Of a stretch of DNA of 64,000 nucleotides, positions 3,725 through 27,000 are shown piece after piece. The translations under genes and the position numbers were made by a program. Each line of letters begins with the position of its first letter. Position 1 is the first letter of the stretch. The stretch is from Bacteroidota bacterium. Lineage in GTDB: Bacteria > Bacteroidota > Ignavibacteria > Palsa-1295. Under the pieces are notes generated by a model, which searched no databases, was not told the DNA's origin, and saw nothing but the letters and a program-made list of their open reading frames with translations. The stretch spans positions 62,001 through 126,000 of the forward strand of contig JAFDZW010000002.1 in NCBI GenBank assembly GCA_018266755.1, given 5' to 3'.

Positions 3725-3770
3725 ACCCTCGTTTCTGCTCGTACAAGGCAGAACGAGGGTTTCCTGTTTT
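3725..3770. terminator. Bidirectional intrinsic terminator
   Basis: Hairpin made of ACCCTCGTTTCTGC (3725-3738) and GCAGAACGAGGGT (3748-3760), with one extra T in the left arm, followed by TTCCTGTTTT. It lies between convergent genes (H1-like gene and the T9SS gene ending at 3769), so it can serve both. The T-run overlaps the stop codon of the minus-strand gene. Confidence 0.8.
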
Positions 3771-4620
3771 AGTGGCGGACGATCAATGTCCGTCCGAACT
3801 GTTTCCCGCCTCCCTCCACCCGCAGATAATACACACCGTTCGATAACGAGGATGCATCGATCGGAAACGATACTTCTGCCGAACCCGACATCCCTGCATA
3901 CACGGTCGACACCTCCTGCCCGTTCACGTTATACACCACTGCTCGCACCATCGATGCGGTGGGGATGCGAAGTCGAACGGTTGAGAACCAAGACACCGGA
4001 TTAGGATACACCGAAAGATCCGACGATTCCCCTTTTTCAAATCCAGTCGCCTCAACCGGATCCGAGAATCCCAGGTCGTCCAACTCGAACCACGTCCCCA
4101 GATGCGGTGCGGTCGATTGAGCACCTTTGATCGAGCAATAGATCAAGATCGTATCCGGAACGTAGGACGAGAACGTATATGAGATCGGAATACTAATCTG
4201 GTCCCATTCACTTACATTGTTCGACGTAATGAGCGAACCGCCCCCGATCGCCGATTCCCCCATTGCGGCAACGAGTGATATCTGAAGGACATCGCCGCTG
4301 TCGGAATGAAATTTGATCCAGCCTGTGAGCGCGCTGACACGCTGATTGACACCGGAGCCTTTATGCGAGGTCGAGCGGTTCTGCAGCGTGGGCGCAAAGA
4401 GGCTATTCGCGTAGCTGACCACTTCGGCACGCAGCGAAAACGAACCCGAATGTGCGTCACTCGATGGGGAGACGTTTATGAGCTGCGGCGCTGCATTCGA
4501 TGTCTGCCAACCGTCGGGCTCGCCATTGGTCCAGGATTCAAACCCCGCATTCAGGATTTGCCCCCGAGCAATGCCAACGCCCAAGAATACAGCACACAGG
4601 ATGGTCAGTGATCGTCTCAT
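3769..4620 (-). CDS. Secreted T9SS protein with N-terminal carbohydrate-binding-like domain
   Basis: A 283-aa exported protein. A signal peptide covers residues 1-20 (RRSLTILCAVFLGVGIARGQ). The domain that follows begins ILNAGFESWTNGEPDGWQ, the typical opening of jelly-roll galactose-binding-like domains in Bacteroidetes secreted proteins. From about residue 200 a T9SS type A sorting domain is seen: SVYPNPV, then VYNVNGQEV, then SLSNGVYYLRV, ending LIVRH. Family knowledge: such domains send the protein through the outer membrane for surface anchoring or release. The ligand is unknown. The leader lies next to an 83-bp palindromic repeat. Confidence 0.85.
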   Translation of the reverse strand: MRRSLTILCAVFLGVGIARGQILNAGFESWTNGEPDGWQTSNAAPQLINVSPSSDAHSGSFSLRAEVVSYANSLFAPTLQNRSTSHKGSGVNQRVSALTGWIKFHSDSGDVLQISLVAAMGESAIGGGSLITSNNVSEWDQISIPISYTFSSYVPDTILIYCSIKGAQSTAPHLGTWFELDDLGFSDPVEATGFEKGESSDLSVYPNPVSWFSTVRLRIPTASMVRAVVYNVNGQEVSTVYAGMSGSAEVSFPIDASSLSNGVYYLRVEGGGKQFGRTLIVRH

Positions 4621-4720: not shown

Positions 4721-4803
4721 GTCATTCCGAGTGAAGCGAAGAATCCCTCGATGAAACGCAGTGAGGCTCCGCCATAGGGATTCTTCGCTTCGCTCAGAAT
4801 GAC
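4721..4803. repeat. 83-bp MITE/REP-like element with 28-bp terminal inverted repeats
   Basis: The left arm (4721-4748) begins GTCATTCCGAGTGAAGCGAA and the right arm (4776-4803) ends CGCTTCGCTCAGAATGAC. The arms are reverse complements at 26 of 28 positions. The element lies in the 305-nt gap between the T9SS gene and the sigma factor gene; no gene or clear promoter is seen in the rest of that gap. Related single arms occur at 26973-27000 and 37975-38002, so this is a dispersed family. No transposase is encoded. Confidence 0.8.
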
Positions 4804-4925
4804 GTCTGCGTAGACAGAGCAAGTGGAGCCGCTACAAATATTCTTGCAACAGGATGTGCGACTTTTTGGAGCGTATTGCCTCTTACTCCATGTAACCGCG
4901 CGGCTACACGTACATATACAACTGC

Positions 4926-5546
4926 ATGAGTAGCGAGCTTCAGCAGAAGCATGATCACTTTTTGTCTCTCTTGACGCCGATCCGAACGTCGTTGGCGCGG
5001 TTCTGCCGTGCCATCACGTCGGACGACGACGCTGCGCGGGACCTCGCCTCAGAAACGATTCTCGTTGCGTACGAACACCTCGAGACACTTCGCGACCCGA
5101 GCCGATTCCGAAGTTATTGCTTCCAGATCGCCTCCCGCCACGCGAAACGATCGAGGTGGCGCGAACGCAACCGGGTCGCCTACGACGCGACGTTCGCCGA
5201 GGCGCTGGCCGATACCGGCCCGAGCCCCGAAACGAGCGCGGAAGTCCGCCTCCTTTACGAAGCACTCGACACATTGCCGACGAACGTTCGCGATGCGATC
5301 GTGCTCTTCGAGATCAGCGGGCTGTCGCTCGAGGAGATCCGTCAGATTCAGGGCGGATCGCTTTCCGGGGTGAAATCGCGCATTGCACGGGGCCGCAAGC
5401 AACTGGCCCGGTTGCTCGGCGTGCGTGACGATGCGCAGGAGAGTGTCAGAATGGTGGAGAACAACACAACAGAACGAACGCACTATCGCTTCGCACGGAC
5501 CGATGCGTCGGCCCTGCGAGCGAACACGAAATCGACGATCCTATGA
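4926..5546 (+). CDS. ECF-type RNA polymerase sigma factor
   Basis: A 206-aa sigma-70 family protein of the extracytoplasmic function group. Region 2 covers about residues 15-85 (DDDAARDLASETILVAYEHL, then FRSYCFQIASRHAKR). Region 4 covers about 108-163 (LPTNVRDAIVLFEISGLSLE, then GVKSRIARGRKQLARLL). A poorly conserved 40-residue C-terminal extension follows. It overlaps the next gene by 4 nt (ATGA), the usual arrangement for a sigma factor and its cognate anti-sigma factor. Target promoters are unknown. Confidence 0.93.
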   Translation: MSSELQQKHDHFLSLLTPIRTSLARFCRAITSDDDAARDLASETILVAYEHLETLRDPSRFRSYCFQIASRHAKRSRWRERNRVAYDATFAEALADTGPSPETSAEVRLLYEALDTLPTNVRDAIVLFEISGLSLEEIRQIQGGSLSGVKSRIARGRKQLARLLGVRDDAQESVRMVENNTTERTHYRFARTDASALRANTKSTIL

Positions 5547-7213
5547 ATAAGAACGCCCACGAACATCAGCGTCTCGACGATCTCTTCGCCGCTGCCCGGC
5601 GAACAGACCCGCCCGCACCGAGCGAGGCAGACGTGCGAATGCTTCTCGAGCGAGCCGATGCCATGCAGCCAGTTTCACAGTCATTTACTTTGAATAAAGG
5701 AATCTGGATCATGTCAACGATCACAACGCTTTCGGCTGCGGCACTCGTGGCCTACCTATCGATGGGTTCGGCATCCGATCGCACAGCCCCTGCAACCGCA
5801 TCCCGCTCAGCGGAGCGTATGCTGACGGTCACTCCGTCCGATCAGCATACAGCAGTAACCGATACATCCCATCACCCTGCGGTAACGATGCGATTTGTCG
5901 TGAAACCCGACGGAACCTCCACTACCGAACCACGACCGACACAATCGCTCATGGCACCGATGGAGGTACACGGTATCACTCCGGTCGCCATCGACGAATC
6001 GCAACGTCAACACTTCGGTCTCGAAACCGTTGACGGGAAAGGCCTCTCGTACCTCGTCAAAGAGATGAACGGCCGCTATCAACGCTGGATCATCCCCGAT
6101 AAGGGCTGGGGCGTCGTCACAGGGAAGGATGAAGTACCCGCATCGAACATATTCATCCTCAACCCGGTCATCGTCACCGATGCGCGCGGCAATCGTCGGA
6201 TGATCAACTATGTCGATCCGAACCACTCGATCAGCATGAGCCGAAATACCGACGAGATCGACGATAGTTCGACGCATACATTCAAGCAACAATTCAAGTT
6301 CAAGATCGTCGATAGCACCAACGATCCGGTAAGCCGCCTACAGTCGATGCTTCACTTCAATACGAACGATAGCGTCGGCGCCCGGATACAGACCCAACTG
6401 CATCAAGCGCTCAATGAGATCAAGGAATTGACGATCGACACTACAGGCACACACCGAAAGGAGAATGTGAACGTCATGCAGATGATCATTAATGCAGGCG
6501 GAGATAACAAACTCCCGCTCGAAGAACGCGAACGGATGATGCGGAACGAACTGCCGCCGGAGATTCGCGAAGACGACAGCACGAGCACTCCGATGGTCAA
6601 ACGGATCGTTCGCTTTAATATCAATACGGTCTCGAAGAACGGCTCCGATCCGAAGGCCAACACGGTACCGTCGATGGATCACCCCTTCATCTTCCGTATC
6701 GACGACATGAAGGAGGTCGAGGAAACACTCTTTGCGAAGATCAATACCCTTGTCCCGATCCTCGTTCGCGAGGCAACCACCGTCACCCGCAACAGCCGCG
6801 AGAACGTCGACTACGACAACGGCGTGATCTTCTGGTGCGAACCCTCGCCGGAGCTGACGCAGGCGCTTACGTCGCAACGCTCGAACGAACATCCGTTCAA
6901 TACCACTGTCACGAATCAGCCGGTCACTACATCGACCGGCGCACTCTCGAACGCACAGATCAACCCCAACCCGGCATGGGCGACGACCACCGTTCATTTC
7001 ACACTCGCCGAGCCGCGAATGGTTGCATTCTCCGTGCACAACATCCTTGGGAAAAAGATGCTTGATTGCGGCGAAGTAGAGTACGGGGCCGGCGAGCAAA
7101 CGCGCTCACTGTCGCTCGACGGACTTTCCGACGGAATGTACATGGTTGTGATGACCACCGATCACGGCGAGCAGATGATCCAACGAATCGTCGTTCGTCG
7201 GTTGGGCGAATAA
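5543..7213 (+). CDS. Anti-sigma-like membrane protein with a C-terminal T9SS-type sorting domain
   Basis: A 556-aa protein. Residues 1-50 are soluble and contain LDDLFAAARRTDPPAPSEAD, which resembles the cytosolic sigma-binding segment of FCB anti-sigma factors. One hydrophobic helix (about 53-74) follows. Residues 75-460 are a large Thr/Asn/Asp-rich region predicted to be periplasmic. From about 465 the chain has a T9SS type A signature: INPNPAWATTTVHFTLA, then VHNILGKKML, then LSLDGLSDGMYMVVM, ending QRIVVRR. There is no cleavable signal peptide. Overlap with the sigma gene supports an anti-sigma role (inference). The combination of inner-membrane anchor and outer-membrane export domain is unusual. 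Confidence 0.82.
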   Translation: MNKNAHEHQRLDDLFAAARRTDPPAPSEADVRMLLERADAMQPVSQSFTLNKGIWIMSTITTLSAAALVAYLSMGSASDRTAPATASRSAERMLTVTPSDQHTAVTDTSHHPAVTMRFVVKPDGTSTTEPRPTQSLMAPMEVHGITPVAIDESQRQHFGLETVDGKGLSYLVKEMNGRYQRWIIPDKGWGVVTGKDEVPASNIFILNPVIVTDARGNRRMINYVDPNHSISMSRNTDEIDDSSTHTFKQQFKFKIVDSTNDPVSRLQSMLHFNTNDSVGARIQTQLHQALNEIKELTIDTTGTHRKENVNVMQMIINAGGDNKLPLEERERMMRNELPPEIREDDSTSTPMVKRIVRFNINTVSKNGSDPKANTVPSMDHPFIFRIDDMKEVEETLFAKINTLVPILVREATTVTRNSRENVDYDNGVIFWCEPSPELTQALTSQRSNEHPFNTTVTNQPVTTSTGALSNAQINPNPAWATTTVHFTLAEPRMVAFSVHNILGKKMLDCGEVEYGAGEQTRSLSLDGLSDGMYMVVMTTDHGEQMIQRIVVRRLGE

Positions 7214-26866: not shown

Positions 26867-27000
26867 GCTCCGACTTCAGTCGGGGCATCAAATCAGAGCC
26901 TCCCATTTCTTCCTCGTCGAAATGATTTCTGACACTCCGTAGGGGTGACGCATGCGTCACCCGTGTGTCTAAAGGGATTCTTCGCCTCGCTCAGAATGAC
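26867..27000. repeat. Cluster of palindromic repeats between the kinase and TrmH genes
   Basis: Three structures lie in the 231-nt gap. First, CCGACT-TC-AGTCGG inside 26867-26886. Second, a perfect 20-bp palindrome at 26943-26962 (GGGTGACGCATGCGTCACCC). Third, a 28-nt arm at 26973-27000 that differs at one position from the right arm of the element at 4721-4803. No gene fits in the gap. These look like REP or MITE remnants. Confidence 0.7.

Follow-up and report, generated by a model that had tools for sequence, protein, structure and literature searches.

Membrane anti-sigma factors are usually released by regulated proteolysis, as in the RseA-type systems, and in FecR/FecA surface signalling an anti-sigma factor with a single transmembrane (TM) helix contacts an outer-membrane partner through its C-terminal part. 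The short class II anti-sigma domains, CnrY among them, wrap the sigma factor with two helices (PMC7406223). The 'dual membrane-spanning anti-sigma' (Dma) proteins extend from the cytosol to the outer membrane, where they end in a C-terminal outer-membrane barrel (PMC13088901). Two relations between ECF sigma factors and the type IX secretion system (T9SS) have also been described: in Porphyromonas gingivalis PorA, a protein with a T9SS C-terminal domain (CTD), acts upstream of PorXY-SigP (PMC7712824), and in Flavobacterium psychrophilum (SM6) an ECF/anti-sigma pair is linked to the promoters of T9SS genes (PMC9723704). No description of an anti-sigma factor carrying a T9SS tail was found in the literature searched. 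The locus analyzed here seems to encode such a protein.

The window, that is, the whole stretch of 64,000 nucleotides under analysis, contains an ECF sigma factor gene that overlaps by ATGA the gene of a 556-residue protein; both were found in the place where an earlier note on this DNA had put them (Table 1). The sigma factor exceeded the cut-offs of Pfam (Sigma70_r2, 32.6 bits with a cut-off of 24; r4_2, 41.9 bits with a cut-off of 25.7) and of TIGR02937, sigma70-ECF (55.3 bits, cut-off 42.9), and the -4 gene overlap is frequent among homologous pairs. In the AF2 model the cytosolic domain of the second protein is made of two helices, residues 11-20 and 28-40, bearing the motif LDxLFAAAR..P..S....LL. 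It is followed by a single TM helix, which hydropathy locates at residues 54-72 and the model at 51-75, and by an ectodomain of about 380 residues split in two parts by low-confidence sequence. The pLDDT is mostly below 50 for residues 76-119 and 227-386, and the tether-like stretch differs in length among homologues. One TM helix and a large extracytoplasmic region, as claimed before, are therefore both borne out. A search with the homologous domain of locus L053 gave no clear PDB match for the ectodomain fold (best Z 3.2). The claim that the protein has no cleavable signal holds for the long form, which places about 50 cytosolic-type residues before its only TM helix and has no N-terminal cleavable Sec signal, but it is complicated by a conserved internal start-like Met at the TM segment; the C-terminus, previously read as IVVRR, actually ends IVVRRLGE. 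The assignment as an anti-sigma factor is probable by analogy, from gene order, topology, the two predicted helices and precedent. The proposed pairing of a sigma with an anti-sigma-type protein is supported by an ECF gene adjoining nearly every homologue, the binding of the two products being presumed.

Table 1. Features of the sigma/anti-sigma-type operon, in window positions
Feature	Position	Strand	Basis or remark
-35-like element TGCGACTTTT	4857..4866	+	motif common to sigma-gene upstream regions in the family
-10-like element TGCCTCTTA	4877..4885	+	N10 after the -35-like element
ECF sigma factor gene, 206 aa	4926..5546	+	Pfam above cut-off; sigma alignment A2
ATGA stop/start overlap of the sigma and anti-sigma-type genes	5543..5546	+	
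Anti-sigma-type membrane protein with T9SS type A tail, 556 aa	5543..7213	+	
Cytosolic two-helix domain, putative anti-sigma domain	5573..5662	+	AF2; conserved in alignments A1 and A3
TM helix, residues 51-75	5693..5767	+	hydropathy and AF2
AAAGGA, Shine-Dalgarno-like site inside the gene	5696..5701	+	
Conserved internal ATG (M57) at the start of the TM helix, possible second start	5711..5713	+	
Ectodomain part 1, residues 148-221	5984..6205	+	AF2
Low-confidence tether-like stretch, residues 227-381	6221..6685	+	pLDDT mostly <50
Ectodomain part 2, residues 382-443, motif LVPILVR...IFWxxPSPEL	6686..6871	+	AF2, alignment
T9SS type A sorting domain (Por_Secre_tail), residues 473-551	6959..7195	+	PF18962, TIGR04183, fold
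PNP motif of the tail, residues 475-477	6965..6973	+	invariant in alignment A4

The protein resembles the Dma proteins (PMC13088901) in its sigma-binding-type N-terminal domain, one TM helix, long disordered tether and adjoining ECF gene, in a C-terminal module aimed at the outer membrane and in belonging to Bacteroidota. It differs in the module itself, which is not a beta-barrel but the Ig-like beta-sandwich of a T9SS CTD. Dma is associated with sigma group ECF21 and with vesicles; the sigma factor of the tailed pair is of ECF type by Pfam and TIGR02937. Since it shows the Dma layout but no beta-barrel, it probably works like Dma and is not classed as one. With PorA (PMC7712824) it shares a T9SS C-terminal domain tied to an ECF sigma factor, but PorA is exported as a protein of its own, has a signal peptide and acts through a two-component system, whereas here the domain lies within the putative anti-sigma factor. 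The wiring different from SigP/PorXY that the earlier note had suggested is, given Dma and PorA, less unprecedented than it seemed. The likeness to class II (CnrY-like) domains is one of predicted shape, a very short two-helix cytosolic domain before the TM helix, while ectodomain and tail are unrelated. FecR/FecA signalling offers the same single TM helix and, in the mechanism proposed here, a C-terminal part turned toward an outer-membrane partner; this partner, however, would be the T9SS and not a TonB-dependent receptor, and no FecR domain was found in Pfam scans. Finally, the protein is like T9SS type A cargo in its PF18962 and TIGR04183 scores over the cut-off, in its CTD fold and in coming from a genome that encodes a T9SS, and unlike it in carrying an extra cytosolic domain and, in its long form, lacking a cleavable signal at the N-terminus. 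The idea of an envelope-spanning anti-sigma factor, whose anchor in Dma is a barrel, would in this way come to include anchoring by a secretion signal.

Por_Secre_tail has 150 matches in the own genome of the locus, the tail alone is cheap, and homologues were therefore sought with queries lacking it, namely residues 1-465 and a profile of the N-terminus and ectodomain (A3); tails were then detected with an HMM derived from the tails of ordinary cargo proteins in two genomes (G000 and G001). The fusion seen in the window recurs: in the class Kapaibacteria/Ignavibacteria the tail-less profile found homologues in 53 of 391 genomes, belonging to 31 of its 190 genera, 12 of the 13 genomes of the own taxonomic family among them, and the tail was present in all 46 retrieved loci, out of 53, that have a complete 3' end. 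The profile search found no such gene in the genus-mate G001. The arrangement of sigma gene and tailed protein occurs once more, in diverged form, in the own genome (locus L058, contig C5). Because of this second copy and of the tail in 46/46 complete homologues, the fusion of tail and membrane protein is not due to chance. What is special is hence not the tail itself but its fixed union with a membrane protein beside an ECF gene, which lies directly upstream on the same strand in almost all homologues; at L055 the sigma frame is broken, adjoining two unknown bases, and a contig end truncates L108. When named genomes were scanned with the sigma alignment, the carriers of the class proved to be Candidatus Kapaibacterium, Ignavibacteria and Chlorobiota MAGs, and a tailed protein was also present beside the sigma gene in the cultured Rufibacter latericius, another Rufibacter, Sabulibacter ruber, Agaribacillus aureus and Marinoscillum pacificum, and in Prolixibacteraceae MAGs. 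The putative brake is conserved, then, across Kapaibacteria/Ignavibacteria and present in cultured Cytophagales. The own genome encodes a T9SS (SprA, 793 bits on contig C5; SprA_N), and SprA occurs in all carriers of the class, the apparent exceptions, G100 and G347, being contig breaks; this co-occurrence is uninformative because SprA is found in 370 of the 382 genomes of the class. Two of the loci have a peculiar arrangement: at L049 (1352-5999) two sigma/anti-sigma pairs stand in tandem, and at L214 (4527-5963 and beyond) an in-frame tail follows a single stop codon, owing to a degenerate gene or a sequencing error.

The reading that we favour, with a probability of roughly one half, is that of a trans-envelope sigma/anti-sigma operon in which a tether reports the state of the T9SS or of the outer membrane and frees the sigma factor when this state changes. 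The cytosolic helices would hold the sigma factor as class II anti-sigma domains do, and the T9SS domain would dock on the type IX machinery or on its outer-membrane shuttle. As the uncleaved membrane helix would block secretion of the tailed protein, the docked tail would make the tether a reporter of the T9SS or outer-membrane state. Altered docking, pulling or proteolysis may then free the sigma factor, which would activate at least its own operon. Sensing of the T9SS by the tailed protein, as the earlier note proposed, is a plausible working hypothesis, and since the two genes stay together in dozens of distant relatives it may read the state of the outer membrane or of the secretion machine directly. 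Made up of two genes, a sigma brake with a T9SS address tag would be a minimal system in which the operon's own promoter gives the read-out.

The same gene could, however, have two starts, the long product being the membrane anti-sigma factor and a short one, begun at M57, being devoid of the anti-sigma domain. The short form would enter Sec by its hydrophobic N-terminus and perhaps serve as an ordinary T9SS client; what sets the signal would be the ratio of the forms, their competition or a copy at the surface. This is a serious possibility, to which we give somewhat less than an even chance. A Met in or just before the TM segment occurs in 47 of the 52 members examined, usually preceded by K/R-G or an equivalent two to three codons upstream, with an SD-like spacing of 6-9 nt. 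The Met was chosen by a rule blind to the SD; for a small number of rows (L052, L055, L117) the choice can be disputed, and this lowers the SD result instead of favouring it. Pairing with the anti-SD was stronger at this Met, with a mean energy of -4.3 kcal/mol, than at other internal Mets, with -2.0 (p=1.6e-8), and than in synonymous shuffles, with -3.2 (summed z=-4.7, with 0 of 1000 draws as low); the members are related, so that the p-values given here are optimistic, and those from shuffles of single genes were mostly not significant. Of 31 Gly codons at the site, 23 are GGA, where codon-pair usage predicts 10.5, and with relatives grouped about 16 of 21 are, against 6.8 expected (P=3.5e-5). 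In addition, a change of residues leaves the SD-like site in place, KG being encoded by AAAGGA and RR by AGG AGA. The pairing energies, the GGA excess and the RR codons point to nucleotide-level selection for a ribosome-binding site, and a near-universal TM Met behind such a site suggests a second, shorter product. On the other hand, K/R is found within residues 2-6 in no more than 7 of the 47 short forms, which is atypical of a signal peptide, some members lack the Met or the SD, and the SD-like stretch could instead pause ribosomes. Relatives in Bacteroidia likewise keep a Met in the TM segment, so that its conservation may partly be a protein feature. A more specific form of this proposal, in which a membrane-locked anti-sigma factor and an exportable tailed copy compete for the secretion machine and thereby set sigma activity, is a doubtful one; if true, the competition of the two products would directly report how much traffic passes through type IX secretion. 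An internal start, if real, would add a dual-product layer to anti-sigma factors, none having been reported in the literature searched.

As the earlier note had proposed, the tail is of T9SS type A, its scores lying above the curated cut-offs of both profile libraries (PF18962, 31.7 bits with a cut-off of 27; TIGR04183, 34.7 bits with a cut-off of 23), so that the proposal survives the profile search by which that note would have seen it refuted. The AF2 model is seven-stranded, with pLDDT about 94-98, and matches the CTD of mirolase (Z 10.0, rmsd 1.8 over 77 residues), the CTD region of PorU (Z 9.9), the CTD of NucA as bound in the T9SS complex (Z 8.8) and PorZ (Z 8.6), a fold that alone is not specific for T9SS because unrelated Ig-like folds score nearly as high. 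Por_Secre_tail was found by Pfam (E<=0.01) in 50 of 50 aligned members, ten of which had been picked for having the tail and the other 40 not. The only strictly invariant positions of this alignment (A4), PNP, G503, G531 and Y533, all belong to the tail, which is the best-conserved part of the protein and always located at its extreme C-terminus. The generic character of the beta-sandwich leaves some room for the tail being a stable Ig-like cap or protein-protein module taken from T9SS cargo, the ectodomain sensing a ligand or envelope stress with no contact to the T9SS. Five members of one genus-level group, in which two or three tail-like domains stand in tandem, would agree with that view; nevertheless, of 56 terminal tails 55 retain PNP, whereas none of the six internal duplicates has it any longer, and the terminal copy is therefore held to more than its fold. 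This argues that the terminal tail is under T9SS-type constraint and is not a mere spacer. Together with the fixed position of the tail, its conservation and its scores, it makes the cap an unlikely explanation. In a tree of tails the change between anti-sigma and cargo labels occurs three times, against 14.7 in shuffles. Hence, within the low resolution of the tree, the union seems to be old and made once or a few times, and the tails of the anti-sigma proteins, grouped mostly apart from those of cargo, may have diverged in function, which again would suit a cap.

Shedding of the ectodomain is also rather improbable. Under stress a periplasmic protease would cut it, regulated intramembrane proteolysis would free the sigma factor, and the tail would let the T9SS clear or export the severed part. 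The long low-confidence stretches, presumably flexible, would be cuttable, and the scheme fits regulated proteolysis as the usual release route, but a conserved cleavage motif was not identified. That the gene encodes no anti-sigma factor, being an ordinary T9SS cargo gene behind a sigma gene with a mis-called N-terminus, as most T9SS-tailed genes of the own genome presumably are cargo genes, is already disfavoured and very improbable, given an N-terminal motif conserved as protein in about 50 homologues, a conserved ATGA overlap and sigma pairing in nearly every homologue.

Behind around 25 sigma genes of the family stands a protein that resembles the tailed one in N-terminus and TM helix and has another C-terminus, so that the C-terminal module has been swapped between relatives. 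These alternative ends are barrel-like with terminal F or W, which is the layout of Dma (PMC13088901), FGE-sulfatase or SLT transglycosylase; the barrel has weak Pfam support in one case (L160), the other barrel calls being made from a sequence pattern and the terminal F/W. The FGE-sulfatase domain, whose fold is also that of GldK/PorK, is C-terminal in proteins of Fluviicola and Crocinitomicaceae. It is clear by Pfam on L212 and L216, while L213, L208 and L217-L219 were assigned by their ends; L212, L213 and L216 come from Fluviicola and a Flavobacteriales MAG. In L163 (4609-5940) the anti-sigma-like N-terminus and TM helix are fused to an SLT domain, clear in Pfam, and a link of this ECF pair to the cell wall is possible. 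The ectodomains vary as well: in L124, L133 and L136 a TonB_C domain lies between TM helix and T9SS tail, and L125 and L128 have an unrelated, probably helical ectodomain, with N-terminus, TM helix and tail as in the others. With ectodomains and C-termini variable and the cytosolic end constant, the C-terminal envelope module is exchangeable, and, as the same sigma family is used with other modules, the tailed protein would be the T9SS-tailed counterpart of Dma.

The sigma genes are preceded by a bipartite motif, TGCRACTTTT-N10-TGTCTCTTA, far more often than expected from shuffled sequence: 77 of 106 upstream regions score at least 14 of 19, whereas any of 30 shuffles does so in 22 regions. 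The motif also precedes the sigma genes paired with the barrel-like and FGE variants. The copy in the window (4857-4885) has one mismatch and is the only match in the genome with fewer than three. A promoter conserved before most sigma genes makes autoregulation of the sigma operon likely. A search of the own genome with the strict promoter motif yielded no T9SS gene. Candidates for a wider regulon were discarded: the three other matches in this genome have three mismatches each, near the control level, and in relatives the non-self matches mostly belong to further sigma genes of this family or arise by chance. The divergent neighbour of the operon, at 3769-4620 of the window on the minus strand, encodes an ordinary secreted T9SS-tailed protein of 283 aa, with a signal-like N-terminus and the C-terminal end FGRTLIVRH. 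The repeat ATTCTTCGCTTCGCTCNGAATGAC occurs in three copies at window positions 4721-4803 and 26977-27000, where 0 are expected; two of the copies, inverted, lie upstream of the sigma gene, forming a dispersed hairpin-forming element.
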